DNA from: Deltaproteobacteria bacterium
GTDB lineage: Bacteria > Myxococcota > Myxococcia > SLRQ01
DNA length: 64,000 nt
Direction of reading: 5' to 3'
NCBI GenBank assembly: GCA_029210625.1
Contig: JARGFU010000004.1
Span: 209,329 to 273,328 of the forward strand
Part shown: positions 13,173-42,313 of the stretch, in pieces
Layout: every line of letters starts with the position of its first letter
How positions within the stretch are numbered: the stretch's first letter is position 1
Position numbers and translations under genes: made by a program
Notes under the pieces: generated by a model
Databases searched by the model: none
Told to the model about the DNA's origin: nothing
What the model saw: the letters and a program-made list of their open reading frames with translations, nothing else

Positions 13173-14114
13173 GTGCCCACCTACAACTTCAAGGATCGCG
13201 AGCTCACCGCGAAGATCGTCTATTACGGGCCCGGGATGTGCGGGAAGACCACCAATCTTCAGCGCGTCCACGAGAAGATGAACCCCGACCTGCGGGGCAA
13301 GCTCGTCTCGATCGCCACCGAGACCGACCGGACGATCTACTTCGATCTGCTGCCGATGAACCTCGGCAAGATCGCCGGCATGACCTTCTCGGTGCGGGTC
13401 TTCACCGTGCCCGGGCAGATCTACTACGCCGAGACCCGCCGCCTCGTGCTCCAGGGCGCCGACGGCGTCGTCTTCGTCGCCGACAGCGCCAAGGACAAGC
13501 TGGCCGAGAACATCGAGTCCCTCAAGGACCTCAAGAAGAACCTCGCCGCCAACAAGCTCGACTACGCGACCATCCCGATGGTCCTGCAGTGGAACAAGCG
13601 CGACCTGCCCAACGCCCTGCCGGCGGGGGCCCTGCAGCGCGCGGTCAACGAGCGGAAGGTGCCGGCCTTCGAGGCCACCGCCACCACCGGTGAGGGCGTC
13701 CTCGAGACCCTGCGCGGCATCACCGTCGAGGTCTTCAACTACATCAAGGCCGGCATGAAGTCGGGCGACGTGAAGCCGACGGTCACCGGCGGCAAGAAGG
13801 CGCCGCCGAAGCCGGCCCCCGCCGCCGCGCGCCCCGCGCCCGCGGGCCCCGGCGCCGCGAGGCGCCCGCCCCCGCCCCCGGCGGCGGCCCACCACGCCTC
13901 GACCCCCCTCGACGATCTCGGCGCCGACGATCCCGAGGAGATGCGCAAACAGATCGCCTTCGCCGAGTTCCAGAACCTGGCGGTGATGCACCACAAGCTG
14001 GTGGAGCGGGTCAGCCTCCTGGAGAAGGAGGTCTTCCGATTGCGCCGGGACCTCAAGGCGATGGGGGGCGGCACGCGGCCGGCCGCCGCTGCCCGCAAGC
14101 CCGCGCCGAAGTGA
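13173..14114 (+). CDS. MglA-type small Ras-like GTPase with a C-terminal coiled-coil extension
   Basis: A 313-residue protein. Residues 1-200 are an MglA-family GTPase: P-loop GPGMCGKTT (19-27), TVPGQ switch region (78-82), NKRD guanine-specificity motif (141-144) and the family's FVADS segment. MglA proteins act as polarity switches for motility in Myxococcus. Unlike canonical MglA (about 195 residues), this one continues with a Pro/Ala-rich linker (about 205-250) and a predicted coiled coil (about 262-300, EEMRKQIAFAEFQNL then LLEKEVFRLRRDLK). The start is GTG 13173 (MPTYNFKDRE aligns with the family N-terminus); no strong ribosome site is seen. No MglB-like roadblock GAP gene lies next to it. 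A Myxococcus paralogue with extra termini (SofG) is a possible analogue. Confidence 0.88.
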   Translation: MPTYNFKDRELTAKIVYYGPGMCGKTTNLQRVHEKMNPDLRGKLVSIATETDRTIYFDLLPMNLGKIAGMTFSVRVFTVPGQIYYAETRRLVLQGADGVVFVADSAKDKLAENIESLKDLKKNLAANKLDYATIPMVLQWNKRDLPNALPAGALQRAVNERKVPAFEATATTGEGVLETLRGITVEVFNYIKAGMKSGDVKPTVTGGKKAPPKPAPAAARPAPAGPGAARRPPPPPAAAHHASTPLDDLGADDPEEMRKQIAFAEFQNLAVMHHKLVERVSLLEKEVFRLRRDLKAMGGGTRPAAAARKPAPK

Positions 14115-25676: not shown

Positions 25677-26501
25677 ATGCACGACCGGCGCGTTCTTGGA
25701 GGAGGCGAGCAGGGTCAGGTGATCGTCGAGCAGGCGATCATCCTGCCCATGATGGTCTTCCTGATCCTGGGCATCGTCCAGCTCTCGATGCTGCAGCATG
25801 CCCGGATCGCGACGGAGTACGCGGCCTACAACGCCGCGCGCTCCGGGATCGTCTACAACGGCGACGTCGACAAGATGGAGCGCGCCGCCTTCTTCTCCGT
25901 CCTGCCCACCCTCGGCCGCTCCGACAACTGGGGCGACCTCTTCCAGACGGTCTTCTCCAAGGCCCTGCTGGCCCAGTTCGGGGCCGATCTGGCCGACATG
26001 ATCGGCTTCGACATCCTCGGCAGCATGAAGATGGTCCAGGTCGAGATCCTGGATCACCCGGACCCCAACATCGGCGACCGCCTCGGCATCGTCGATCAGC
26101 AGCAGCACCTCAACCAGCAGCAGATCGACTTCGACGACTTCCGCACCCAGCCGGCCATCGCGAACCAGCTGACGGTGCAGGTGAAGTACTTCTACAAGAT
26201 GCGGATCCCCTTCGCGAACTGGATGCTCCACTACATGTGGATGGCCTCCCGCGCGGACGCGATGGCCGCCTACGGCACGGTCGCCTTCGCGAACCCCGAG
26301 CGCACCATCCTCGGGCGCCGCACGGGGATCGGCTCGCACACCGAGATCCTGGCCCGCGCCGCGGCCAAGTCCGGGGACGACGACGACCTGCGGGTGGTCC
26401 TCCAGTACCGGGTCGCGGGCGAGTACCGGATCCCGATCAACACCCACTACACGATGCGGATGCAGTCCAACCTGTACCGCACCTACCTCGAGGGGAACTG
26501 A
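25677..26501 (+). CDS. TadE-like pseudopilin-type protein
   Basis: A 274-residue protein, first of a five-gene operon. The N-terminus has the TadE pattern: EQGQVIVEQAIILPMMVFLILGIVQ, a Gly before a hydrophobic helix with Glu shortly after, as in class-III prepilins cleaved by a TadV-type peptidase (see the QGQVIVEQ motif at 12-19). The remainder is an extracytoplasmic domain. The next gene starts 3 bases after its stop. In Tad systems TadE/F are minor pilins needed for Flp pilus assembly; the role here is inferred. About 200 bases upstream (25477-25676) must carry the promoter. Confidence 0.8.
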   Translation: MHDRRVLGGGEQGQVIVEQAIILPMMVFLILGIVQLSMLQHARIATEYAAYNAARSGIVYNGDVDKMERAAFFSVLPTLGRSDNWGDLFQTVFSKALLAQFGADLADMIGFDILGSMKMVQVEILDHPDPNIGDRLGIVDQQQHLNQQQIDFDDFRTQPAIANQLTVQVKYFYKMRIPFANWMLHYMWMASRADAMAAYGTVAFANPERTILGRRTGIGSHTEILARAAAKSGDDDDLRVVLQYRVAGEYRIPINTHYTMRMQSNLYRTYLEGN

Positions 26502-26504
26502 CCG

Positions 26505-28160
26505 ATGCTTCTGATGATCCATCGGCTTCGCCGAGACGAGGAGGGCCAGACCCTGGTCCTGGGCGCCGTCTCCATGCTGGTCCTGGCCCTGGCCGTGATG
26601 ACCACGATCAGCATCGGTGAGGCGGCCTACGAGAAGATCAAGCTGCAGAACACCGCCGACGCGGCGGCCTACTCGCTGGCGGCCACCCAGGCGCGCGCGT
26701 TCAACTTCTTCGCCTACACCAACCGGGCGATGATCGCGCACTACAACACCGCGCTGACGATGGTGGCCTACCTCTCCTTCTGCATCTACGTGAACAACAC
26801 GCTGGGGAGGCTGGCGGGGCTCCTCAAATACATACCCATACCCGTGTTCTCACAGGTGATGACCTTCATCGAGAAGGCGCTGGAGATCGTCACCAAGGCC
26901 TTGCGGATCGTGGTGGCGGTCGTCTTGCCCATCGTGAACATCGTCAACGGGGCCTACTTCCTCTTCCAGATGGGCATGCTGGGGGTGCTGGCAGCGCAGC
27001 TGCTCCAGAACTCGGGCATCGTCTACGAGAACGACCCCGACGCCGTCTCGGGGGTCGACCTGGGCAACCTGAACGCCGGCTCGGTCTTCCAGGTGCTCAT
27101 CAAGGGCTTCAACGGCATGGCCGTCTACAACGCCTTCGACTTCAAGTCGACGATGGCCCTGGTCCCGGTCTACGGAGCCAACCGCAACTTCGACAACGTC
27201 AAGAACACCAACGGTCCCCAGATCAAGAACGCCGCCGGTCAGGACCGCGGCAACGAGGGGCGGTTGATCATGAACGAGCTGATCAACGCCGGCCGCCATC
27301 CCTGGGTGACCATCTCGAAGAACGGCACGCCCTTCCTCGGCCGGAAGTGGCGGATCAACATCGGCATCCTGGGCTTCGGCATCGAGTTCAAGAAGAGCGC
27401 CCGGACCGAGCACAACGCCACCACCGGCATGGGGTCCCGCAGCAACTCGCGGCACGACATGATCTTCTCGGTGGACCAGTTCTACATCCGGCTCTACGCG
27501 CCCTCGTACTGGTTCAAGATCACCTACAACTCCTTCGTGCTGGCCGACTACAAGAAGGGCGGCGAGCTCGAGCAGCTGCAGGTGAAGGACAAGAAGTGCG
27601 GCAAGTGGAACTGGCGCTGCAAGCTGGGCAAGGCCATCACCGCCCCGGTGCGCGAGATCCTCAAGGCGGCCTTCAAGGCCTTCCCGGGCCTCAACCGCCT
27701 CAAGGAGAAGAAGTACTACTGGTTCGGCATCACGCCCTTCATGAAGTTCAACCCCTCGCCGAAGTGGCGGGAGGTCTTCCACCAGCCGCAGTTCATGATG
27801 CTGGTGAGCAAGCCGGACGAGAAGCTCAACAAGCTCCAGGACACGGCCCACCGCAGCTACGGGATGGACACCAAGGTCGAGGTGGGCTCGGGGGCCTGGC
27901 AGAACCGCCGGGGCAGCAACAAGTCGCTGAACCTGGAGGTGGACGTCACCGACGAGTCCTCCTTCATCTCCAGCCTGATGCCGGGCTTCAACGCCCTCTC
28001 GGTGGCGCGCTCCTACTACCACCGCCCCGGTGAGTGGAAGGAGCACCCGAACTTCTTCAACCCCTTCTGGGCCGCCAAGCTCGACCCGGTGGCGCACCAC
28101 GCCATGATCGGCGAGATCCCCCACCTGGCGAACTTCGGCGACGAGATCATCCTGCACTGA
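26505..28160 (+). CDS. TadG-like protein with N-terminal pseudopilin helix
   Basis: A 551-residue protein. The N-terminus (RRDEEGQTLVLGAVSMLVLALAVMTT, motif EEGQTLVLG) followed by EAAYEKIKLQNTADAAAYSLA is the typical start of TadG-type proteins (putative Flp pilus-assembly TadG-like N-terminal domain). Two further hydrophobic spans occur near 85-105 and 125-165, so part of it may be membrane embedded. The large basic C-terminal region (many Lys/Trp/Phe) is not recognised. Start ATG 26505 lies 3 bases after the previous stop. Confidence 0.75.
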   Translation: MLLMIHRLRRDEEGQTLVLGAVSMLVLALAVMTTISIGEAAYEKIKLQNTADAAAYSLAATQARAFNFFAYTNRAMIAHYNTALTMVAYLSFCIYVNNTLGRLAGLLKYIPIPVFSQVMTFIEKALEIVTKALRIVVAVVLPIVNIVNGAYFLFQMGMLGVLAAQLLQNSGIVYENDPDAVSGVDLGNLNAGSVFQVLIKGFNGMAVYNAFDFKSTMALVPVYGANRNFDNVKNTNGPQIKNAAGQDRGNEGRLIMNELINAGRHPWVTISKNGTPFLGRKWRINIGILGFGIEFKKSARTEHNATTGMGSRSNSRHDMIFSVDQFYIRLYAPSYWFKITYNSFVLADYKKGGELEQLQVKDKKCGKWNWRCKLGKAITAPVREILKAAFKAFPGLNRLKEKKYYWFGITPFMKFNPSPKWREVFHQPQFMMLVSKPDEKLNKLQDTAHRSYGMDTKVEVGSGAWQNRRGSNKSLNLEVDVTDESSFISSLMPGFNALSVARSYYHRPGEWKEHPNFFNPFWAAKLDPVAHHAMIGEIPHLANFGDEIILH

Positions 28161-28174
28161 TGGAGGCGAGAGTC

Positions 28175-29479
28175 ATGACGACCCGGATTTTCCAGCGCCT
28201 CCTGCGGGAGGAAGAGGGCTCGGGGCTCACCGAGTTCGCGATCATGGTCCCCTCGATCATGATCATCTTCCTCTACAGCATCTTCTTCACCGACATGATC
28301 GAGGTGAAGCTGAAGACGCTCGAGGCCTCCCGCTTCATGACCTGGGAGTCGACCGTCTACCGGGACGGCAACTCCATCAAGCAGGACATGGAGACGCGGT
28401 TTGCGAACCTGCGCTCGACCGACATCGAGGCGGCCGAGACCCTGCACATGATCGGCATCGAGAACGTGCGGATCACGAACACCTACACCGACGCCCTCGA
28501 GGTCGACATGACCGGCGGCGTCCCGGACGACGACAGCACCAGCGAGATCGGCGGCATCGACGCCACCATCAACTCGGTCCTCGCCTGGATGAACCTGCCG
28601 ACCCGCGGCAAGGCGCGCTCGGAGGTCACCTTCCAGGTCGACAACAAGATCGTGCCCGACTTCATGATGTTCAACACCGAGGTGCGGGCGCAGGAGGGCG
28701 AGAGCGAGGGCTTCTCCGGCGACAACGGCTTCTCGATCGCCAGCCACCACGTGATGATCTACGACACCTGGAAGGGCTGGCCGAACAAGAACCGCCGGGT
28801 GGGCAGCCGCGCCGGGCAGACCGCCAACCCGATGCAGACCTACGACATCGCCGAGTCGGCCCTGGAGGCCCAGCTGCGGCCGGTCGCCTACTTCAAGCTG
28901 ACCAACACCGGCATCATGGACGCCCTGGGTGAGGTCTTCGCCTTCTTCGGCCTCCCCGAGCCCATCACCGTGAAGCGGGCCACCACCGGCCCGACCACCA
29001 TGCGGGCGCCGGCGAAGTCCGGCCACGGCATCCAGGGCTTCTCGCCCACCAGCAGCCAGAGCCAGATCACGCGCTTCGGCCACCGCTGGGGCCAGAACAT
29101 CTTCCTGGGCGACAACCCGAACCCGGGCATCGACCACAGCCGCTGGTCCCTGCCCTACTCCATCTCCAAGGGCAGCTACGGCGGCCGGACCGTCACCTGG
29201 TGGCACCAGCGCGCCGGCGGCATGGTCAGCCTCTCGCGGCCCTGGTCGATGTCGGAGTACCCGCCCAACACCAAGCTCTACAACCACCAGTACGAGAACG
29301 ACTACTTCCTCTCCTACGGCTGCCGCGGTCACTACTACGACGGCTACGTCCAGGAAGACGGCGAGCCCGGGGACTATCGCAACTACGACGGCTGCGGTGA
29401 CGGCGTCGATGCCGTTCAGGGCGGGATCCAGGATCTCCTGAACACCTTCGGCGGCGGCTTCCAGCTTCCGGGGTTCTAG
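28175..29479 (+). CDS. TadE-like pseudopilin-type protein, second copy
   Basis: A 434-residue protein. The N-terminus LREEEGSGLTEFAIMVPSIMIIFLYSIFF carries the class-III prepilin pattern (Gly, then Thr-Glu at +4/+5, then a hydrophobic helix). The long C-terminal domain (about 390 residues) is rich in aromatic residues and ends in a Gly/Asp/Tyr segment with cysteines in YGCRGHYYDGY and YDGCGDG. Start: ATG 28175, with GGAGG about 11 bases upstream; the in-frame ATG at 28160 overlapping the previous stop is an alternative. Confidence 0.72.
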   Translation: MTTRIFQRLLREEEGSGLTEFAIMVPSIMIIFLYSIFFTDMIEVKLKTLEASRFMTWESTVYRDGNSIKQDMETRFANLRSTDIEAAETLHMIGIENVRITNTYTDALEVDMTGGVPDDDSTSEIGGIDATINSVLAWMNLPTRGKARSEVTFQVDNKIVPDFMMFNTEVRAQEGESEGFSGDNGFSIASHHVMIYDTWKGWPNKNRRVGSRAGQTANPMQTYDIAESALEAQLRPVAYFKLTNTGIMDALGEVFAFFGLPEPITVKRATTGPTTMRAPAKSGHGIQGFSPTSSQSQITRFGHRWGQNIFLGDNPNPGIDHSRWSLPYSISKGSYGGRTVTWWHQRAGGMVSLSRPWSMSEYPPNTKLYNHQYENDYFLSYGCRGHYYDGYVQEDGEPGDYRNYDGCGDGVDAVQGGIQDLLNTFGGGFQLPGF

Positions 29480-29482
29480 GCC

Positions 29483-30283
29483 ATGCGTAAGCTCATCCTG
29501 AAGTCCCTGGCCCTCGTCCTCTGCGGCGGCGCCGCTGCCCTGGGCCTGGCCCTCGACCCGGGCACCATCGCCTCCTCGAGCGCCATCGCCCCCCGGGCCG
29601 TCACGCCCCTCCTCCACGGGGACCTCCCCGCCTACCCCGGCGTCGCCGAGACCCGGGTCGGCCGGGGGCTCTCGATCAACGGGCAGCGCGTCGACATGCA
29701 CCAGTTCTTCACCGACGACGCCCCCGAGGTGGTCGCCGACCACTACGAGCAGGTGCTCTCCGCGGCCGTCGGCGGCGAGGTCCACCGCTACCAGGTGGGC
29801 AACGCCGACTACGTGGGCGTGATGAACGACGAGGGGCGCTTCGTGCAGGTGATGATCCTCGCCGACGGTGAGGGCTCGCTGGTGATCCCCAACGTCGCCG
29901 ACGGCCCCCTGCGCCCCGGCCGCGAGGTCTCGAGCCTGAAGGTGCCGCTGCCGCCCGACGCCTCCAACCTCTCCACCTTCCGCTCCCAGGACGGAGGCAA
30001 GGTCGCCACCTCGGCCCAGTTCCTCACCGAGCTCGACATGCTGGGCATGTCCGAGTTCTACCGGGCGAAGATGCCGGCCCTGGGCTTCCGCCAGCTCGAG
30101 GGCGCCGTGGTCCCCGAGTCCCTCGGCGAGAACGGCCTGATGCGCTTCGCGGGCCCCGAGGGCGACATCGTGAGCATCGGCGTGCAGTCGGTGGCCGAGC
30201 GCCGCGGCTGCCTCGTCTACCTCCTCCACGAGGTGCCCATCGATCCGGACGCGCCCGAGGCGGCGCCGGAGGCAGCGCGATGA
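29483..30283 (+). CDS. Exported protein of the Tad-like operon, unrecognised
   Basis: A 266-residue protein with an N-terminal signal peptide (MRKLILKSLALVLCGGAAALGLAL), hence periplasmic or secreted. The mature part has PAYPGVAETRVGRGLSI then FFTDDAPEVVADHYEQVL, a 'YPG...hydrophobic...T-D-x-P-x-x-V-x-x-x-Y' pattern also seen loosely in the small protein at 32189. No catalytic motif is evident. The gene begins 3 bases after the second TadE-like gene and overlaps the pilin-like gene by 4 bases, so it belongs to the same transcript. Confidence 0.65.
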   Translation: MRKLILKSLALVLCGGAAALGLALDPGTIASSSAIAPRAVTPLLHGDLPAYPGVAETRVGRGLSINGQRVDMHQFFTDDAPEVVADHYEQVLSAAVGGEVHRYQVGNADYVGVMNDEGRFVQVMILADGEGSLVIPNVADGPLRPGREVSSLKVPLPPDASNLSTFRSQDGGKVATSAQFLTELDMLGMSEFYRAKMPALGFRQLEGAVVPESLGENGLMRFAGPEGDIVSIGVQSVAERRGCLVYLLHEVPIDPDAPEAAPEAAR

Positions 30284-30483
30284 AGACGATCCGGAAGCTG
30301 CTCTCCCGCCTCTCCTCGGAGCGCGGCCAGGCCGCCACCGAGTACGCCATCATGTCGGCCTACCTGCTGGCCGCCGGGCTGGTCGCGTCGCCCTTCGTGA
30401 TGCGCTTCATGCCGGAGATGCTGAACGCCTTCCAGATCTACGTGGACGGCTTCTACTTCGTCTTCAGCCTGCCGATTCCCTGA
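30280..30483 (+). CDS. Flp/Fap-type small prepilin-like protein
   Basis: A 67-residue protein with RGQAATEYAIMSAYLLAAGLV: Gly21-type cleavage context with Glu at +5 and Tyr at +6, as in Flp pilins, followed by a single hydrophobic helix and a short hydrophobic tail. Length fits Flp pilins. It overlaps the preceding gene by ATGA. Being last in the operon with two TadE-like and one TadG-like gene suggests a small pilus or pseudopilus; no ATPase, secretin or prepilin peptidase gene is in the window. Confidence 0.78.
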   Translation: MKTIRKLLSRLSSERGQAATEYAIMSAYLLAAGLVASPFVMRFMPEMLNAFQIYVDGFYFVFSLPIP

Positions 30484-30543: not shown

Positions 30544-31398
30544 TCAGTTGCCCACGGGCAGGTAGGGCAGATCCGACTTCGCCCCCTCGCCCTTGGCCTT
30601 CAGCTCCATCACCGTGTCCTGCTCGGTGGCGCGAACCACCCGCAGCACTGGCACGATGCCCACGACGTCGAACCAGATCTCCGAGCTGTAGGCCTTGCCG
30701 TCGGGGCGCTTGCCGTCGAAGCGGTAGTGCCAGGTCTCGAACTTTCCGGCGGGCACCTCGATGGTCTTCTTCCCCAGGTACTTCACCTTCGGCAGGTGGG
30801 TGTCCGAGACCTCCACGTTGATGGAGAAGGCGTCCTGGAACTTCTGCTCCGGGTCGTTGCCGATGGGCAGCACCAGGGGCGGCATCCCGGCGGGCTTCAT
30901 GATCATGCCCCGGGCGTTGCGCAGGTCGGAGGAGGCCTTCTGGAAGGCGATCTTCACGTAGGTCTTGTCGCCGGTTCCGTCGATGGAGAGGATCTCGAGG
31001 ATGCGCCAACTCGGACCCGGCAGCCCGTCCTGGGGCACCACCGAGAGGCGCATCGAGCCGAGGTTGAACTGGGGGTGGGTGATCTCGTACTCGGCCCAGC
31101 CGCCGACCTTCATCTTCGGCATGCCGGTCTTCAGCTTCTTCCACTGCGCGTCGGGCAGGAAGAGGCCGACGTTGCCGAGGTCGAGCTTGTTGTCCATCTG
31201 GTAGGTCTCGACGTCGTTGTCCTCGCCCGGATCGCCGGTCACCGTGGCCGGGGCCTCGTCGTCACCGGCGACCCGGGTCGCCGGGAGGTTCTTCTTGATG
31301 GGCGGCTTCGCCGGGGTCTCCTTCGCCTCCTGGGCACGGGCGGGGGTGGACCCACCGAGGAGGGCGCAGAGGGAGAGAAGGAGGACCGTTCGCATCAT
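30544..31398 (-). CDS. Exported protein, possibly DUF3108/LolA-like
   Basis: A 284-residue protein with a cleavable signal peptide (MMRTVLLLSLCALLGGSTPARA). The C-terminal half contains KKTIEVPAGKFETWHYRF and SSEIWFDVVGIVPVLRV, which resemble the strand order of lipoprotein-localisation or DUF3108-type beta sheets where a substrate-derived polymer is measured; this is a weak resemblance. It begins 25 bases from the divergent gene at 31424. Two adjacent ATGs (31398 and 31395) are both possible. Function unknown. Confidence 0.6.
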   Translation of the reverse strand: MMRTVLLLSLCALLGGSTPARAQEAKETPAKPPIKKNLPATRVAGDDEAPATVTGDPGEDNDVETYQMDNKLDLGNVGLFLPDAQWKKLKTGMPKMKVGGWAEYEITHPQFNLGSMRLSVVPQDGLPGPSWRILEILSIDGTGDKTYVKIAFQKASSDLRNARGMIMKPAGMPPLVLPIGNDPEQKFQDAFSINVEVSDTHLPKVKYLGKKTIEVPAGKFETWHYRFDGKRPDGKAYSSEIWFDVVGIVPVLRVVRATEQDTVMELKAKGEGAKSDLPYLPVGN

Positions 31399-31423
31399 GG
31401 CTATCTGGTAGGCTAGCGGCTCC

Positions 31424-32188
31424 ATGGCTGTCAATCGGACCTCCGGTAGGACGCCCTCGCGCAAGCTGGCATTCATCAACGCCGGCCTCTATCTGGGCTG
31501 CGTCGCCGTGGGCGGCCTGGTGGTCGCCTCGTCGGCCCGCGCGCTCCTGCTCTTCTATCGCGAGCCGGTCACCTACCTCCCCGGCCTGCCGCGCGACTTC
31601 TGGCTGGTGGGCCTCGAACTCCTCCTCGCCCTCCTCGGCGCCCTCGCCCTCGGGCGGGCCCTCGCCGGGGAGCGCCCCTCCTTCGCGCTCTCTGCCGGCG
31701 TCTGGGGCCTCATGAGCGCGCTCCTGGCCTACTGGATGGTGGGCAACCCCGGGGCGCGCGAGATCTCGGCGCTCCACCCCCGGGCAGAGGTGGTCGGCCA
31801 CCTGAACACCCTGGCAGTCCTGCTGAAGGATCGCTACCGGCAGGAGGGGCGCTACCCCGAGAGCCTCGAGGTCCTCGCCGGGAGGACGGGCTTCCCCGAG
31901 GGCCCCACGCCCTGGACCGGACGCGGGCGGCGCCTCACCTACCAGCACGTGAGCGAACGGGGCCTCGGGGCACGCCTGGCCGGCCGCGACGGTGACCTGG
32001 CCGGGACCTTCTACTACGTCGTCTCACCGACCCGGGACCACTACTGGTTGACGGCGGTGATCCTCGACGGCGCCCCCACCGGCAACCTCGCGTTTCTCCG
32101 TGACACCTCCGGCCATCCGATGATTATCTCGTCGCGCTCCTCGTCGAAGGTGGACGAGACTCAGCCCATTTTTCCCGGAGGTCGCTAG
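31424..32188 (+). CDS. Membrane protein with three helices and a pseudopilin-like soluble tail
   Basis: A 254-residue protein. Three hydrophobic spans at about 16-46, 60-82 and 87-108 are followed by a soluble C-terminal half. There, LNTLAVLLKDRYRQEGRYPESL resembles the segment of type II secretion and type IV pseudopilins in which a helix leads into G-x-Y-P (motif EGRYPESLEVL). That could reflect the same structural module, but no N-terminal prepilin signal exists. The downstream gene starts on the next base after the stop, so the two are co-transcribed. Function unknown. Confidence 0.6.
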   Translation: MAVNRTSGRTPSRKLAFINAGLYLGCVAVGGLVVASSARALLLFYREPVTYLPGLPRDFWLVGLELLLALLGALALGRALAGERPSFALSAGVWGLMSALLAYWMVGNPGAREISALHPRAEVVGHLNTLAVLLKDRYRQEGRYPESLEVLAGRTGFPEGPTPWTGRGRRLTYQHVSERGLGARLAGRDGDLAGTFYYVVSPTRDHYWLTAVILDGAPTGNLAFLRDTSGHPMIISSRSSSKVDETQPIFPGGR

Positions 32189-32722
32189 ATGAACCGGATG
32201 ATCAGGCCCTTGCTCGCCCTCTCCCTGCTGCTGCCGGCGCTCGCCACGGCCGAGCCCTTCGCGCCCACGCCCACCCTGCCCGCGGGCTACGGTGACCAGC
32301 TCTACACGGCCATCGTCAAGCAGATGAAGAAGGACATGCCCGACGCCTCGAAGGTCCCGGCGCCCCTCTGCCCGGGCTGCGTGGCCATGCAGCTCGGCCC
32401 GGGGATGGAGGGGGCCCTCCCGGCGGTGCAGCTGCTCTCTCCCGCCTCCAAGAAGGAGGTCGTCGCCTTCTACAGCGAGAAGCTGAAGGGCTGGAACAAG
32501 ACCGAGGAGCACGGCTTCCAGTGGGTCTTCTGGAAGGGCGGCCAGAGCCAGCTGAACTCGATGATGCCGACGGTCCCCCACGTCGTGGTCTTCGACGCCC
32601 TCGCGGCCGGCCTCGACAAGAAGCTCTTCGCCAAGATGAAGACCCAGGTCGTCGTCTACTTCCCCGGCGAGCCGGGCAAGGCGCCGCCCGCCCCTCCCGA
32701 GGAGGAGGACGAGGAGGAGTAG
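32189..32722 (+). CDS. Small exported protein, unrecognised
   Basis: A 177-residue protein with a signal peptide (MNRMIRPLLALSLLLPALATA), a CPGC motif near residue 62-65, the pattern KKEVVAFYSEKLKGW (also suggestive of a repeated fold in the exported protein at 29483), and an acidic C-terminal tail ending EEEDEEE. It is translationally linked to the membrane protein upstream (ATG immediately after its TAG). No known domain recognised. Confidence 0.6.
   Translation: MNRMIRPLLALSLLLPALATAEPFAPTPTLPAGYGDQLYTAIVKQMKKDMPDASKVPAPLCPGCVAMQLGPGMEGALPAVQLLSPASKKEVVAFYSEKLKGWNKTEEHGFQWVFWKGGQSQLNSMMPTVPHVVVFDALAAGLDKKLFAKMKTQVVVYFPGEPGKAPPAPPEEEDEEE

Positions 32723-32750: not shown

Positions 32751-32752
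<2 letters not shown>
32735..32752. terminator. Hairpin overlapping the gyrB stop codon
   Basis: A perfect stem AGCTCCC / GGGAGCT with a TAGC loop, just after the small exported gene and overlapping the end of gyrB (TAG on the minus strand at 32751-32753). Likely a shared transcription stop for the convergent genes. Confidence 0.55.
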
Positions 32753-36488
<3,736 letters not shown>

Positions 36489-36492
<4 letters not shown>

Positions 36493-37160
36493 TTCGCGTC
36501 CGTCGCGGCCGGAGGATCGACGACGACCGGCGCGAGGGGATGCTGGCTCGGATCGCTGGGGGTCTCACCCGGGAGGGGACCCTCCTTCAGGAGCGCGGGC
36601 TTGAGCTTCGCCGGGAGGATCTCGCGAGCGAGGACGCCCGGCGGCACGCAGACCTCACCCTCGGGGTAGGTGAAGGTCCAGATCTTCTCCCGGCCGCTCT
36701 CCTGCTCCTGCCAAACCCAGGAGAGGGCGCCGAGGGAGTCCCGCTGCACCCGGCTCTTCTCGCGCCCCTTCCCCACCGCCGCCTCGAGGGCCTCGCCGTA
36801 GACGACGAGCTTCGGGTCGAGGGTCGCTCCGGCCTCTGCCGAGCGATAGAGGGGCGGGGTCTGCACCAGGCTGCCGCCCTCGGCGAAGGTGTAGCTGGCG
36901 CGCACGTAGCAGTGGCCGCGGACGAAGCGCTCGAAGATGCCGGTGTGGGGCTTCATCCCCTCCCACTCGATCAGGAGCACCTGGTAGCTGCTCATGCCCA
37001 CGGGGACCTGCGCCTCGACGGCCGAGAAGAGCACCGGCGTGGCCTCCACCGGCGCGGCGATGGGCTCGGCCTCGCCGAGACCCTCCTCCGCCTGCGGCGG
37101 ACAGGCCGCGAGGCAGAGGACGAGGACGAGGAGTGAAGACCACTTCCCTGCGAGCCTCAT
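36489..37160 (-). CDS. Lipoprotein inserted between dnaN and recF
   Basis: A 223-residue protein with signal peptide and lipobox LCLAAC (Cys20). The mature part begins with acidic AEEGLGEAEPIAAPVEATP and contains a compact domain (SSYQVLLIEWEGMKPHTGIFERF and WVWQEQESGREKIWTFTYPEGEVC). It is not recognised. It lies 34 bases downstream of dnaN and overlaps recF, so it is part of the replication operon, which is unusual. The final 25 residues are Pro-rich. Start ATG 37160. Confidence 0.72.
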
Positions 37161-37194
37161 GAGGGCCTCCCGCTCGGTTTGGATCGCTGCGACT

Positions 37195-38295
37195 TCAGAT
37201 CCGCATGGGCATCACCACCGCGGTGAAGCCCGGATCGTCCTCGGCCTTGACGAGGCCCGGCGAGAGCTCGTCGGCGACCTCGAGGATCACCCGCTCGCTC
37301 CCGAGCACGCCGAGGACCTCGATGAGGTACTTGGCGTTGAAGCCCACCTTCACCTCGGGGCCGTCGTAGCCCACCTCGAGGGCCTCGGAGGCCTCGCCGA
37401 GGTCGGGGTTCTCGGAGATCACGGTGAGGGTGGACTTGCCCAGCTCGAGCTTCACCGAGGGCGCCCGGTCGGGAGAGACCAGGGAGACGCGCTTGAGGGT
37501 GGAGAGCAGGGCCTCGCGGTCCACGGTCAGCGGGTGCTTGCCCGAGTCGGGGATGACCTGCTGGTAGTCGGGGAACTGACCGTCGACCAGGCGCATGACG
37601 AGGTAGAGGCCCTCGCTGCGGAAGACGGCGTTGCTGCCCGAGAAGCCCAGGCTGACGGTGCCCGGCTTCTCGCCGAGGAGGCGCCGCATCTCGGAGAGGC
37701 CCTTGCGGGGGATGATCACTCCCTTGGAGAGGAAGAGCTTTCCACCGAGCTCCCGCTCGACCATCGAGAGGCGGTGGCCGTCGGTGGCGACCATCCGGGC
37801 GGTGGCGCCCTGGGCCTCGATGAAGACACCGTTGAGGTTGTAGCGGGTCTCGTCGGTGCTGACCGCGAAGTGGGTCTTCTCGATCATCTCCGAGAGGGCC
37901 TCGGCCTCGACGTTCACGAAGGAGACGTCCTCGACGCCCGGCAGGTCCGGGAAGTCGGCCGGATCGGCGCCCACCAGCCGCGAGCGGTAGCGCCCCGAGA
38001 CGATCTCGACCCAGTTGTTCTGCTTGCGGGTGAGGGTGACGGTCTTCTCGGGGAGGCTGCGAACGATGTCGAGGAGCGAGCGGGCCGGGACGGTGATCTT
38101 CCCGGGCTTGCCCACCTCCACCGGATGCTCTCCCTTCAGGCCGAGCTCGAGGTCGGTCGCGCTGATGGCGAGCAGCCCCTCGCTGGCCTCGAGGAGAACG
38201 TTGGCCAGGATCGGCATGGTGGCCTTCCGGTCGACGATTCCTTGCGCACGATAGAGCCCCTTGGCGAGCTCCTCGGCGCTCATCTGAATCTGCAT
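37195..38295 (-). CDS. dnaN: DNA polymerase III beta sliding clamp
   Basis: A 366-residue protein, three repeated clamp domains of about 120 residues each (typical length). The N-terminal MSAEELAKGLYRAQGIVDRKATMPILANVLLEA and the C-terminal hydrophobic FTAVVMPMRI end match the family (visible in KATMPIL and VVMPMR). It encircles DNA as processivity factor. Start ATG 38295 has AGAGGAAG upstream. The upstream intergenic 38296-38569 is rich in GATC sites. Confidence 0.97.
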   Translation of the reverse strand: MQIQMSAEELAKGLYRAQGIVDRKATMPILANVLLEASEGLLAISATDLELGLKGEHPVEVGKPGKITVPARSLLDIVRSLPEKTVTLTRKQNNWVEIVSGRYRSRLVGADPADFPDLPGVEDVSFVNVEAEALSEMIEKTHFAVSTDETRYNLNGVFIEAQGATARMVATDGHRLSMVERELGGKLFLSKGVIIPRKGLSEMRRLLGEKPGTVSLGFSGSNAVFRSEGLYLVMRLVDGQFPDYQQVIPDSGKHPLTVDREALLSTLKRVSLVSPDRAPSVKLELGKSTLTVISENPDLGEASEALEVGYDGPEVKVGFNAKYLIEVLGVLGSERVILEVADELSPGLVKAEDDPGFTAVVMPMRI

Positions 38296-38569
38296 CGTTC
38301 GTTCTTCCTCTGTTGAGACAAGAAAGAGAGAAGGATCTTAGGATCTAGTAGGGATCGTAGGGGCTGTGGACACGAGGGACAGACCCTCAAGTCCTCGGAA
38401 TCACGACCGAACGATCGAGAAGTGTCTGTGGAGAGATCGTAGATCCAGGAAGGGTGCGGCTTGTGTAGCACTGGGCTCAGATCACCGTCAACAGATGGGA
38501 CCCTCCCCTTCGAACAGGGTTTTCCCGTGGCTTTTCCTCAAGGTAGCAGTCTGCTCGGGCGTCCAGTGA
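38296..38569. other. dnaN upstream region: GATC-dense, DnaA-box-like sites (candidate origin element)
   Basis: A 274-base gap between two leftward genes holding no gene. GATC occurs at 38334, 38342, 38353, 38413, 38435, 38442, 38480 and 38568, three of them within 23 bases. The sequence TGTGGACAC (38365-38373) is the inverse of GTGTCCACA, one mismatch from the high-GC DnaA box TTGTCCACA; TGTGGAGAG at 38427-38435 is a weaker match. The promoter of dnaN must also lie here but no clear -35/-10 pair stands out. Confidence 0.45.
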
Positions 38570-39232
38570 TCAGCCCCGGCTCCGGACCGAGGGAGAGCCC
38601 GGCAGGAGACCCTCGGCGAGGGCCAGGGTGGCGGCCTCGGTCTTCGTGCTGACGTCCAGCTTCCGGTAGATGTTCTTCACGTGGCTCTGGACCGTGCCGA
38701 GGCCGATCCCCAGGATCTCCCCGGTCTCGGCGTAGGTCTGGCCGGCCGCCAGCTGGGAGAGGACCTCGAGCTCCCGGGGGGTGAGCTGCTCGGGGCGCTC
38801 GGTGCGAGGGATCCGGGCGGGCTCGAGCACCCAGCCCACGAGGTGGCGCGCCAGCGCCGGGGAGAAGCTGGCGCCCCCGGCGAGGACGGCCTCCAGGGCG
38901 CCCAGGAGCCGCTCGGGGCCCTCTCCACGCAGGATGAGGCTCTTGCCCCCGGCGCGCAGGAAGGCCATCAGCAGCTCCGGGGGGCAGGCCTCGCAGAGGC
39001 CGACCACGGGGCGCTCGAGGGAGGTCAGGAGCTTCAGGCCCTCGAGGCCGGTCGTCGTGGTGGGATCGAGGACCACCACGTCGAAGGCGAGGCCCTGATC
39101 GATCAGGAGCTGGATCTCGGTGGGGTGGGAGCAGGCGGCCGCGAGCCCGAAGGTCGGTTGCTTCCAGCCGATGAGCTGGCCGAGGGCGTCGCGCAGGTGG
39201 CTGCGCTCCTCCAGCACGAGTACCGAGATCAC
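38570..39232 (-). CDS. NarL/LuxR-type response-regulator-like protein with atypical receiver
   Basis: A 220-residue protein. Residues 1-125 have a receiver-like fold: Glu8-Glu9 in place of the acidic pair, Asp56 in VVVLDPTTTTG as possible phosphoacceptor, but Cys80 at the usual Thr/Ser position and Arg102 where a conserved Lys is expected. Residues 149-205 are a clear LuxR-type helix-turn-helix (LTPRELEVLSQLAAG; GTVQSHVKNIYRKL). Start is GTG 39232 with GGGAGGAAAG. No sensor kinase lies next to it. It probably regulates transcription, with the receiver controlled by something other than ordinary phosphorylation, or weakly by it. Position directly upstream of dnaN is noteworthy. Confidence 0.85.
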   Translation of the reverse strand: MISVLVLEERSHLRDALGQLIGWKQPTFGLAAACSHPTEIQLLIDQGLAFDVVVLDPTTTTGLEGLKLLTSLERPVVGLCEACPPELLMAFLRAGGKSLILRGEGPERLLGALEAVLAGGASFSPALARHLVGWVLEPARIPRTERPEQLTPRELEVLSQLAAGQTYAETGEILGIGLGTVQSHVKNIYRKLDVSTKTEAATLALAEGLLPGSPSVRSRG

Positions 39233-39375
39233 GATCTTTCCTCCCGGGACATCCCCAGAGTCCGTTCGCCTCTCTCCCTATCCCATCCGTGGGAGGCTGG
39301 CGAGAGAGGAAGCGATGCGGCGGCGGCTCCGCGGTGGGTTTCGAGCGGGGGCTCCTTCGGCTATCAAGCCTGGCC

Positions 39376-40236
39376 ATGACGAGCCTGCGTCGCCCTCCCC
39401 TCCCCTCCCTGGTCTCTCTCCTCGCCCTGGCGCTCCTCCTCGGGGCCTGCTCGAGCGTGGATCTGATCGTGCGTCAGGGACCGCCGAGCGACTTCGAGGT
39501 CCAGCGCATCGCCGTCGCGCCGCCGGTCGTGCTCGCCCGCTTCGTCGAGGCCGCCGCGCCCCCCGGCATCGACGCCGAGGCGCCCCCCATCGATCACCCC
39601 GTCTTCGAGGCCGGCTACTACGTGGGTCACCTGCACATGGCGGGCGGCTACGTGGTCGTGGAGAGCGAGCGGGGCATGCAGTACCGCTCCAAGACCATCG
39701 CCTTCAACGACGAGGCCCGCTACCGCGGCCTGGCCACCGAGTGGCTCGAGCGCGCGGTCGACGACGCGCTGATCTGGAAGCGGATCAATCACCTCGGGAT
39801 CGAGCCGCTGCCGGACGAGGCGGTGCCCCTGCCGAGGAAGCGAGAGGTGCGCGGCTCGCGGCCGCTGGACCTGCGGGACAACCAGAACCTGCCGGCCTTC
39901 GACCTCGAGCCCGGCGAGCTCGACGAGGCCCGCCGCGCGGCCCTGCCGGATCTGAAGGGCGCCCCGCTCCTCCTCATCCCCTTCCTGACCCACTACTACA
40001 GCCACAACGGCGGCTGGTTCGTCGGCCAGACCTACGGGACCGGCGCCGGCGTGCGCCTCCGGATCTTCTGGGCCCTCTACGACGTCTCCACCGGCCGCAC
40101 CCTGCGCTGGGGTGAGATCCAGGGCCGCCACATCGAGCCCTACGTGAACTCTCCCAACAGCACCCAGATCGACGACTACCTCCTCGAGGCCGAGGCGGAG
40201 GTCTCGAAGGAGCTGCGGCGGCGCCTGCTGCGCTAA
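39376..40236 (+). CDS. Lipoprotein, unrecognised
   Basis: A 286-residue protein with lipobox LLLGAC (Cys25) followed by a soluble domain. The mature N-terminus carries EVQRIAVAPPVVL, as in lipoproteins of the CsgG/LptE-like or DUF799 kind. Further segments are VGHLHMAGGYVVVESE and LLIPFLTHYYSHNGGWFVGQTYGTG, and the C-terminus is helical. The start ATG 39376 is the one directly before the signal helix. It is transcribed against the surrounding dnaA/dnaN genes and is unrelated to them in function as far as visible. Confidence 0.7.
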   Translation: MTSLRRPPLPSLVSLLALALLLGACSSVDLIVRQGPPSDFEVQRIAVAPPVVLARFVEAAAPPGIDAEAPPIDHPVFEAGYYVGHLHMAGGYVVVESERGMQYRSKTIAFNDEARYRGLATEWLERAVDDALIWKRINHLGIEPLPDEAVPLPRKREVRGSRPLDLRDNQNLPAFDLEPGELDEARRAALPDLKGAPLLLIPFLTHYYSHNGGWFVGQTYGTGAGVRLRIFWALYDVSTGRTLRWGEIQGRHIEPYVNSPNSTQIDDYLLEAEAEVSKELRRRLLR

Positions 40237-40240
40237 ACCA

Positions 40241-40286
40241 AAGAGAAAGGGCCGCCTCCCTCGCGGGGGACGGCCCTCTCTTCTTT
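40241..40286. terminator. Bidirectional rho-independent terminator
   Basis: AGGGCCG (40248-40254) pairs with CGGCCCT (40271-40277); AAGAGAA before and TCTCTTCTTT after extend the stem and provide a U-rich tail in both directions. It lies between two convergent lipoprotein genes. Confidence 0.8.
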
Positions 40287-40301
40287 CGGCTTCGTCAGCG
40301 A

Positions 40302-40772
40302 CTACTGGAGCTGGGAGGCCGGGATCGGCTTCTCACCGATGCGCACGCCGCGGGCGTCCACGATGGAGCAGCGGGTGCCGAAGATCGGCATGCTGCCGAA
40401 GAGGAGGCCGTTGGCCGAGGTGTGGACCCGCGGCGAGAGGAGGTGGGTGGCCTCGGGGATCTTGTCGAGGGCCATGTAGAGGGCGCGGCTACCCTCGGCG
40501 GACATGCCACCACCGAGCAGAGCGCCGATGATGGCGAAGGGGCTGCTGGACTGACCGGCGGTGATGCTGGCGGCCTCGTTGGAGAAGAGGTGGGCCCAGT
40601 CGATCCCGAAGATGTAGGTACCGCACTCCTCGGCGTTCACGTTCGCCAGCACGGTGTAGTCGGCCTTGGCGAAGGGGATGGCGGCGCCGGGGATGCCCAC
40701 GTGACGACGGCTGCAGCCGGCGGCGAGGGTCAGGGTGGAGACGGCGAGAAGGGCGATGAGAATGCGCTTCAT
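40302..40772 (-). CDS. Small lipoprotein, unrecognised
   Basis: A 156-residue protein with lipobox TLAAGC (Cys20). The mature part starts SRRHVGIPGAAIPFAKADY and includes NAEECGTYIFGIDWAHLF and a Gly-rich turn GALLGGGMS, then SIVDARGVRIG. Pattern similar to small lipoproteins that carry a TRL-like or ycfJ-like fold, but not firmly assigned. ATG 40772 has AGAGGAC upstream. It lies 200 bases downstream of dnaA; a repeat element occupies part of that gap. Confidence 0.65.
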   Translation of the reverse strand: MKRILIALLAVSTLTLAAGCSRRHVGIPGAAIPFAKADYTVLANVNAEECGTYIFGIDWAHLFSNEAASITAGQSSSPFAIIGALLGGGMSAEGSRALYMALDKIPEATHLLSPRVHTSANGLLFGSMPIFGTRCSIVDARGVRIGEKPIPASQLQ

Positions 40773-40904
40773 GGAAGGTGTCCTCTTGGAGAGTGCTACT
40801 TCGGTAGGAAGGCGCGAGTGGCCTGAACCTGGTGAAAGGAAGAGAGCGATGGATGGGTACCACCCCAGGCGGACCCGGATGCATCCCACGTCCATGGGAT
40901 CCCT

Positions 40905-40938
40905 ACCAAGTGCCTACCAAGTGCCTGGCACCTATCAG
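40905..40938. repeat. GTGCCTGGCACC palindromic repeat, copy 1
   Basis: Contains the 20-mer AAGTGCCTGGCACCTATCAG (40919-40938), preceded by a partial ACCAAGTGCCT duplication. The identical 20-mer is at 51907-51926 and its reverse complement at 56816-56835. The core GGTGCCAGGCAC is an imperfect palindrome. Location: directly after the dnaA stop codon. Confidence 0.8.
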
Positions 40939-40972
40939 GCAGGCGGTGGGGAAGCGGAGCTCCCCCCACCTC

Positions 40973-42313
40973 TCAAACGTTGATGCTCTTCTCGAGGCTC
41001 GCGACCGCCTGCTGCAGCGCGATGTCCTCGTCGAGGAGCCGCTCGATCTTCTTGCAGGCGCTCATCACCGTCGAGTGATCCTTGCCGCCGAAGCTCTTGC
41101 CGATGTCGGGGAAGGAGAGGTCGGTGAGCTTGCGGGTCAGGTACATCGCGACCTGCCGCGGCTGGGCGATCTGCTTGTGCCGGCGGTGGGAGCGCAGGTC
41201 GGAGACCCGCACGTTGTAGAAGCTCGCCACCGTTCTGAGGATGGTCTCGGCGTCGGGGCGCCGGCTGCGCAGGGCCAGGACGTCCTTGAGGACCTCGCCG
41301 GCCAGCTCGATGGAGAGCTCCTGCCCGGTCAGGGAGGCGAAGGCCTCGATGCGGATGAGCGAGCCCTCGAGCTCCCGGACGTTGGACTTGATGTGGGTGG
41401 CCAGGAACATCGCCACGTCGGAGGGCAGCGCGATGCCGTCGGCGGCGGCCTTCTTCTCGAGGATGGCGACCCGGGTCTCGAGCTCGGGGGGCTGGATGTC
41501 GGCGATGAGGCCCCACTGGAAGCGCGACGAGAGGCGCTCCTCGAGCTCGGGGATCTCGTTGGGCAGCTTGTCGGAGGTCACCACGATCTGGCGGTGGGTC
41601 TCGTGCAGGCTGTTGAAGGTGTGGAAGAACTCCTCCTGGGTGCGGTCCTTGCCGGCGAGGAACTGGATGTCGTCCATCAGGAGGACGTCGCAGCGCTCGC
41701 GGAACTTCTGCCGCAGCATCTCCATGCGGTTCTCGCGGATGGAGACGATGACCTCGTTGGTGAAGCTCTCGGCGGAGAGGAGGAGGATGTTCCAGTCCGG
41801 GTGCTTGCGCCGGATCTCCAGGCCGATGGCGTTGAGGAGGTGGGTCTTGCCCAGGCCCACCCCGCCGAAGAGGAAGAGCGGGTTGTAGTTGGTCGCCGGC
41901 ACGTCGGCGACGGCCTTGCACGCCGCCGAGGCGAACTGGTTGGAGGCGCCACAGACGAAGGTGTCGAAGGAGTACTTCTCGTTGAGCTCGCGCACGCCCG
42001 GCGCGGTGCGGGCCGGCCCGGCCCGGGGAGTGCGGGGCTGGGGAAGGTCGGGGTTCGCCGCCGGGGTCTCGGGGCGCTCCTCGACGGTGATCTCGAGCTC
42101 CATGGGCCGCCCGGCGATGCCCTGGACCTCGGTGCGGATGAAGTCGAGGTAGTTGTCGATGACCCAGTCCCGGATGAACTTGTTGGGCAGCGCGAGGACG
42201 ATGCGCTCCTCCTCCTCCGCCACGCAGTGGATGGGGGCGAAGTAGGTCTTGAAGACGTGGTCGTTGAGCCGGCTCTCGATGCTCTCGAGGGTCCGCTCCC
42301 AGGTGCTCGTCAT
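40973..42313 (-). CDS. dnaA: Chromosomal replication initiator DnaA
   Basis: A 446-residue AAA+ initiator that binds DnaA boxes and opens oriC. Domain I is residues 1-75, a Pro-rich domain II linker about 78-108, the AAA+ domain with Walker A GGVGLGKT (150-157) and Walker B LLMDDIQFL, and the C-terminal DNA-binding helix-turn-helix with SFGGKDHSTVMSACKKI. Length is standard. Start ATG 42313. Transcribed away from the 743-base gap with rpmH that likely contains oriC. Confidence 0.98.
   Translation of the reverse strand: MTSTWERTLESIESRLNDHVFKTYFAPIHCVAEEEERIVLALPNKFIRDWVIDNYLDFIRTEVQGIAGRPMELEITVEERPETPAANPDLPQPRTPRAGPARTAPGVRELNEKYSFDTFVCGASNQFASAACKAVADVPATNYNPLFLFGGVGLGKTHLLNAIGLEIRRKHPDWNILLLSAESFTNEVIVSIRENRMEMLRQKFRERCDVLLMDDIQFLAGKDRTQEEFFHTFNSLHETHRQIVVTSDKLPNEIPELEERLSSRFQWGLIADIQPPELETRVAILEKKAAADGIALPSDVAMFLATHIKSNVRELEGSLIRIEAFASLTGQELSIELAGEVLKDVLALRSRRPDAETILRTVASFYNVRVSDLRSHRRHKQIAQPRQVAMYLTRKLTDLSFPDIGKSFGGKDHSTVMSACKKIERLLDEDIALQQAVASLEKSINV

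Follow-up and report, generated by a model that had tools for sequence, protein, structure and literature searches.

A candidate Kil-type Tip cassette with its own adapter pilin, one of three paralogous cassettes in a myxococcotal genome

Results

A compact operon of Tad-type minor pilins

The window analysed here is a whole stretch of 64,000 nucleotides on contig 4 of a draft genome (6.1 Mb, 98% complete) of a Deltaproteobacteria bacterium from the phylum Myxococcota, and our subject is an operon within it whose products resemble the minor pilins of Tad pili. Five intact open reading frames on the + strand span positions 25677-30483, spaced by 3, 14 and 3 bases and closing with a 4-base overlap, just as an earlier note on this DNA, made from the letters alone, had laid them out. 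That note described the products as two TadE-like proteins, one TadG-like protein, an exported protein and a Flp-like pilin, a description that Pfam backs for genes 1 and 2 and homology for genes 3 and 5. It also placed the end of the operon at 30483; the five genes stand, but the conserved cluster continues to 32722 and comprises eight genes (Table 1), the three beyond the operon being homologous to genes of kil cluster II in Myxococcus xanthus. The grouping of the five genes is not a matter of chance, since the same order occurs twice more in this genome and also in many relatives.

In M. xanthus, the Kil system builds a Tad-like pilus that serves to kill prey upon contact (PMC8460266). Its KilL, KilM and KilN proteins form exchangeable Tips from four paralogous clusters, while KilK and KilO are adapter Flps and KilP is the major pilin (PMC12075869). 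On the basis of gene order and the published locus tags (4658 for KilL4, 4659 for KilN4, 4660 for KilM4 and 4655 for KilK; PMC12075869), we assign the roles of KilL, KilM and KilN to three of the window genes.

Table 1. Genes of the conserved cluster, in window coordinates.
Product	Length (amino acids)	Position	Strand	Evidence and remarks
KilM-like (TadE) minor pilin	274	25677..26501	+	Pfam TadE 6.5e-11; paralogues on contigs 7 and 1
KilN-like (TadG) large minor pilin	551	26505..28160	+	Pfam Tad (TadE/G-like) 5.5e-6
KilL-like (TadE/F) minor pilin	434	28175..29479	+	Homology to M. xanthus Tip4 KilL-equivalent and to contig 7 paralogue
Exported two-repeat protein X; conserved fourth Tip cassette gene	266	29483..30283	+	Family profile
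KilK/KilO-like Flp adapter pilin	67	30280..30483	+	Homology to M. xanthus Flps
DUF3108-like exported protein	293	30544..31425	-	Iterated profile; inverted relative to kil cluster II
Membrane-anchored protein	254	31424..32188	+	Iterated profile; homologue of the cluster II gene that follows kilK
Short exported protein with one X-type repeat	177	32189..32722	+	Member of the X family by iterated profile; syntenic counterpart L019:12873-13367

Homology to the Tip clusters of M. xanthus

Each window protein matches its role-equivalent in the M. xanthus clusters (gene 4 weakly), and all five cassette roles can be recognised in both the Tip4 and the Tip3 cluster. For genes 1 to 3 the best M. xanthus match is the role-equivalent of the Tip4 cluster (kilM, kilN and kilL, respectively), with the order kept: gene 1 matches the KilM-equivalent at 30% identity (E 2e-35), and gene 3 the KilL-equivalent (E 4e-11). 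Gene 5 is homologous to KilK and KilO of M. xanthus, matching the Flp of cluster II (E 5e-12) as well as that of Tip3 (E 7e-10). Neither gene 4 nor gene 5 has a Pfam match, and gene 3 has none of its own (TadE reaches only 14 bits); gene 3 is homologous to its paralogue on contig 7, C7:4205-5296 (E 6e-10), which exceeds the Pfam cut-off for TadE. Throughout, E-values for comparisons with paralogues, M. xanthus clusters, the X family and accessory genes refer to small custom sets, and those for the KilN profile, the KilP-like and KilF matches and the survey of KilN and KilH are per genome.

A profile built from the three TadG proteins of this genome alone finds five KilN homologues in an M. xanthus genome, with a best E-value of 5e-45. 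They lie in L130, which has the cluster II arrangement; in L131, the Tip3 cluster, with a KilO-like Flp of 59 amino acids; in L132 and L133, both without a Flp; and in L129, which holds an orphan kilN. Such an orphan, closest to the kilN of cluster II and without kilL or kilM, is seen at L129:2959-5037 (M. xanthus AM003) and at L025:9971-12061 (KCTC 72670), and is possibly a fifth tip domain that shares its partners. Although the record of L025 (BNCN01000022.1) bears the title Comamonas sp. KCTC 72670, its locus is like that of Myxococcus, and it looks as though either the title is wrong or the assembly contaminated.

The likeness to kil cluster II (MXAN_4648-4661; Seef et al. 2021, PMC8460266) extends past the pilins, for KilM, KilN, KilL, X, the DUF3108-like protein, Flp and the membrane protein, which follow one another in this sequence in cluster II, are all present in the window. 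The DUF3108-like gene is homologous to L016:6069-6920 on contig 7 and to L130:5480-6289 of M. xanthus, which lies between X and kilK in cluster II, and the membrane-anchored protein to L016:7130-7852 and L130:6561-7256. Unlike cluster II, however, the window lacks CpaB, TadB, TadC and the FHA protein, its DUF3108-like gene is inverted and stands after the Flp, and a second X-like gene has been added. Given that all three genes following the Flp have homologues in cluster II, the window cassette seems to be a duplicate of that cluster's pilin half from which the platform genes are missing.

Prepilin signals and the predicted tip protein

Whether the N-termini can act as prepilin signals was one of the points on which the earlier note made its reading depend. 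The motif G^XXXXE is found in three of the four pilins: after Gly13 of gene 1 (25713-25715, G^QVIVE), after Gly15 of gene 3 (28217-28219, G^SGLTE) and after Gly16 of gene 5 (30325-30327, G^QAATE). Gene 2, as well as its two paralogues in the same genome, reads G^QTLVL and lacks the glutamate at +5; its KilN-like product is likely cleaved after Gly14 (26544-26546).

The ends of the KilN-like protein are conserved, with QNTADAAA..FNF.AYTNR near the N-terminus and YYHRPGxWKEHPNFFNPFW at the C-terminus, while its middle is variable: in the KilN alignment, invariant columns fall at 48-74 and 427-526, with nearly none in between. An AlphaFold2 model made from 29 sequences (mean predicted local distance difference test score, pLDDT, 70; predicted TM-score 0.69) shows two long helices, the N-terminal one at 12-107 and the other at 113-168, together with a beta scaffold, in outline agreement with the published description of KilN4 (PMC12075869). 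Neither fold searches with the model nor profile searches gave a credible match in the Protein Data Bank (PDB), and the Kil paper likewise reports no PDB homologue for the KilN4 domain (PMC12075869). We predict that this protein of 551 amino acids provides the backbone and the distal variable domain of a tip. The earlier note had regarded the C-terminal domains as unusually large for minor pilins; their size is in fact typical of the KilN and KilL minor pilins of Tips (PMC12075869).

Many TadG proteins of Burkholderiales (loci L030-L098) share the N-terminal motif QNTADAAA..FN..A.TN with KilN, which suggests, at the level of sequence, a common TadG subfamily.

One Tad machine and three cassettes

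Within the 64,000-nt window we saw no Tad core genes. The observation that no Tad machinery lies nearby is thus correct for the window, but it does not carry over to the genome, where machinery is found on contigs 5, 7 and 1; all our genome-wide statements rest on family searches. Contig 7 carries a cassette followed by CpaB/RcpC, TadB, TadC and an FHA protein. Contig 5 encodes, in a row, a Peptidase_A24 prepilin peptidase, a secretin with a pilus N-terminal domain and an FHA-T2SSE ATPase (FHA-TadA). Contig 1 holds a lone Flp_Fap-like pilin of 85 amino acids, the KilP-like major pilin, whose Pfam match falls below the curated cut-off. Both the motor and the prepilin peptidase are therefore present, and the earlier suggestion that the machinery might be encoded elsewhere is borne out. 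In Kil terms, the core (KilB, KilC, KilF, KilG, KilH, the prepilin peptidase and KilP) is present in this genome, at identities to M. xanthus of 59% for KilB, 66% for KilG, 66% for KilH and 70% for KilF; the KilP-like Flp is 51% identical to an M. xanthus Flp over 78 amino acids.

Searches with TadE found two paralogous cassettes, on contigs 7 and 1, each in the order TadE, TadG, TadE/F, exported protein, Flp, with extra small genes ahead of the Flp. The contig 7 cassette is collinear with kil cluster II of M. xanthus. The three cassettes are homologous pairwise at each position, although weakly so for genes 3 and 4 of contig 1, and the genome contains three adapter-type Flps, one per cassette. 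Directly upstream of the TadE gene of the contig 1 cassette lies a gene for a PilT-like ATPase (L017:10593-11663), and the same was noticed by eye in another metagenome-assembled genome (MAG) of the Myxococcota (L042:3004-3648); this ATPase is possibly a retraction motor linked to the cassette.

There are only three secretins in the genome: the first adjoins pilMNOP-like genes, the second lies near a T2SSF gene of the type II secretion system/type IV pilus type on contig 3, and the third is the Tad-type secretin of contig 5. Since there is likewise only one TadB/TadC pair, a single machine would serve all three cassettes. The same counts lead us to reject the idea, raised in the earlier note, that the operon forms a separate surface structure of Tad type.

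Instead of building a long filament, the proteins could be the pseudopilins of a device akin to type II secretion, with effectors leaving the cell through the Tad secretin. The Kil authors themselves considered a role of this kind (PMC8460266, PMC12075869), but the genome has a lone KilP-like major pilin and KilP filaments have been seen directly in M. xanthus (PMC12075869), and so we regard a device without a long filament as very unlikely.

A type III secretion system (T3SS) export cluster, comprising sctV, U, T, S, R, Q and J, is found on contig 27 (L151:4205-11461). The only secretins in the genome are of the PilQ, GspD and KilC types, and by gene content the cluster resembles the needleless T3SS* that works with Kil. 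A rival reading accepts the architecture but assigns it another job: the Tad pilus would use the tips of this cassette to adhere to surfaces or kin rather than to kill prey. TadEFG tips do occur on the Tad pili of non-predators (PMC12075869), and the KilN N-terminal motif is shared by the TadG proteins of Burkholderiales. The core components that we tested, however, have close counterparts in M. xanthus Kil, and multiple cassettes per machine are the Kil pattern, into which a secretin-less T3SS cluster would also fit. We consider the adhesive alternative rather unlikely, though it deserves to be kept in mind.

Tip type and relatives

The tree of KilN places the contig 1 cassette with M. xanthus Tip3 at a support of 95 (in that of KilM the support is low, 47) and the contig 7 cassette within the Tip4/cluster II clade at 81, a position that KilM does not resolve. 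The window cassette behaves differently. In the trees of both KilN and KilM it pairs only with L019, from a deltaproteobacterial MAG of the same family, inside a Tip4-like superclade; it groups with none of Tip1, Tip2 and Tip3, and is a distant relative of Tip4. Because it groups only with L019, none of the four published M. xanthus Tips is its ortholog. The Kil paper already describes variant tips, as well as a fifth type, in other predators (PMC12075869), and therefore the window cassette extends a known repertoire.

L019, the only family relative, keeps the eight-gene order, including the inverted gene, at 38-62% protein identity. Gene calls in the relatives, in which some starts are mis-set and some genes of AT-rich relatives are missed, were used for order and not for exact starts. 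One might suppose that the window cassette is a copy of kil cluster II that is in decay and no longer functions, given that it has kept the accessory genes of cluster II while kilB, kilG and kilH are missing and one accessory gene is inverted. Yet every frame is intact, the spacing is tight, and the conservation of order at 38-62% identity implies long-term selection. Decay is thus extremely unlikely.

Co-occurrence across the phylum

Among 174 genomes of the phylum search, KilN occurs in 130 and KilH in 134; both are found in 127, KilN only in 3 and KilH only in 7. KilH thus accompanies KilN in 127 of 130 KilN-positive genomes. Fisher's test gives p 3e-27 for this association, a value that is uncorrected for phylogeny and only descriptive, since the genomes are related; by genus, KilN is present in 54/82 and KilH in 55/82. 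The three genomes with KilN only are drafts, and the seven with KilH only all belong to family f3, where the matches are weak (about 1e-31 to 1e-36). This family, of the same class and with genomes of about 3.5-7 Mb, lacks KilN and has at best a weak KilH, and forms a natural Kil-minus group. M. xanthus itself falls into family f7 and the source genome into f1, so that our organism belongs to the class of Myxococcus but to a different family. In the family of M. xanthus, KilN is usually multi-copy, and KilH is nearly always single. Some genomes of that family (G058-G127) have up to 9-10 KilN matches per one KilH, versus the four Tips of M. xanthus, a count that is an upper bound because fragments are included.

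The conserved gene X

The least explained part of the cassette is gene 4. The family of its product, X, adjoins kilL in all four M. xanthus Tip clusters (by family profile) and in nearly every complete Tip cassette examined. Its members include the window genes at 29483-30283 and 32189-32722, as well as L130:4674-5483, L131:5872-6729, L132:11343-12143 and L133:6478-7287. X is built of two related repeats (probability 94 in a profile comparison of one half against the other), and its predicted model consists of two alpha/beta units (pLDDT 78). Fold and profile searches found neither a known domain nor a PDB fold match for X, and a text search of the main text of the 2025 Kil paper found no mention of it (PMC12075869). 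We tentatively suggest that X may be an unrecognised fourth component of Tips, such as a periplasmic chaperone or a loading factor that chooses which tip is mounted on the shared pilus, although we hold this to be somewhat doubtful.

Genomic neighbourhood

The cassette adjoins gyrB, recF, dnaN and dnaA (window 32751-42313), and therefore lies near the chromosome origin; dnaN and dnaA were recognised by eye. The other neighbours include fabH and further genes of the origin region. At window 13173-14114 there is a small Ras/Arf-like GTPase that resembles MglA, the motility-polarity switch of myxobacteria.

Discussion

On the strength of its gene content, its homology, its paralogy, the complete machine elsewhere in the genome and the co-occurrence across the phylum, all of which are established above, we read the operon as a Kil-type Tip cassette with an adapter pilin, one of three exchangeable tips for a Kil Tad pilus encoded elsewhere in the genome, and we assign this reading a probability of roughly 0.82. 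Several points weigh against it. The identity of the pilins to those of M. xanthus is low (25-38%), the KilN-like protein lacks the glutamate at +5 that is usual for TadG, and the confidence of its model is moderate. The organism, moreover, is represented by a draft genome alone, and because predation by it is something that we infer, the cassette might serve adhesion only.

The operon resembles the M. xanthus Tip clusters (Herrou et al. 2025, PMC12075869) in combining TadE, TadG and TadE/F prepilins with an exported protein and a small Flp. It also resembles Kil in that paralogous cassettes accompany one split Tad machine, and in the large C-terminal domain of KilN. Whereas M. xanthus has two Flps for four tips, each of the three cassettes here has its own, and, unlike the Tip clusters of M. 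xanthus, the window cassette has the accessory genes of cluster II but not its platform genes.

Canonical tad loci (flp-tadV-rcpCAB-tadZABCDEFG) likewise contain minor pilins of the TadE/F/G types, a Flp and prepilin motifs. In such loci the minor pilins are located with the motor and the secretin. Here, by contrast, they are detached from the machinery, and the ATPase of the source genome bears an FHA domain.

If the cassette works as Kil Tips do, the KilM-, KilN- and KilL-like prepilins would be cut by the Tad prepilin peptidase (the KilA-like protein of contig 5) or by PilD, and would then join through their N-terminal helices into a heterotrimer at the end of the pilus. The Flp-like product of gene 5 would serve as the adapter, attaching this trimer to the end of a filament built from the KilP-like major pilin of contig 1. 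Driven by the KilF ATPase and the KilG/KilH platform (contigs 5 and 7), the filament would grow out through the KilC-like secretin. At the tip, the KilN-like protein would present its variable central domain, which would contact the target cell. Three cassettes and one machine would thus yield one pilus with three alternative tips, and by analogy with M. xanthus the window cassette may serve in predation.

How one machine chooses among several tips is an open question in the Kil paper (PMC12075869). If X were indeed a selector, the window cassette would form a self-contained tip module, equipped with both a selector and an adapter, and in any case our analysis draws attention to a conserved cassette gene that text searches did not find in the main text of the 2025 paper. 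The window cassette adds one more instance of a system known from work on M. xanthus in 2021-2025. With it, Kil and its interchangeable tips reach into a family outside that of M. xanthus within the same class; it represents a tip type that is absent from M. xanthus, and it indicates that complete tip modules, comprising pilins, adapter, X and accessory genes, duplicate and separate from the machine.

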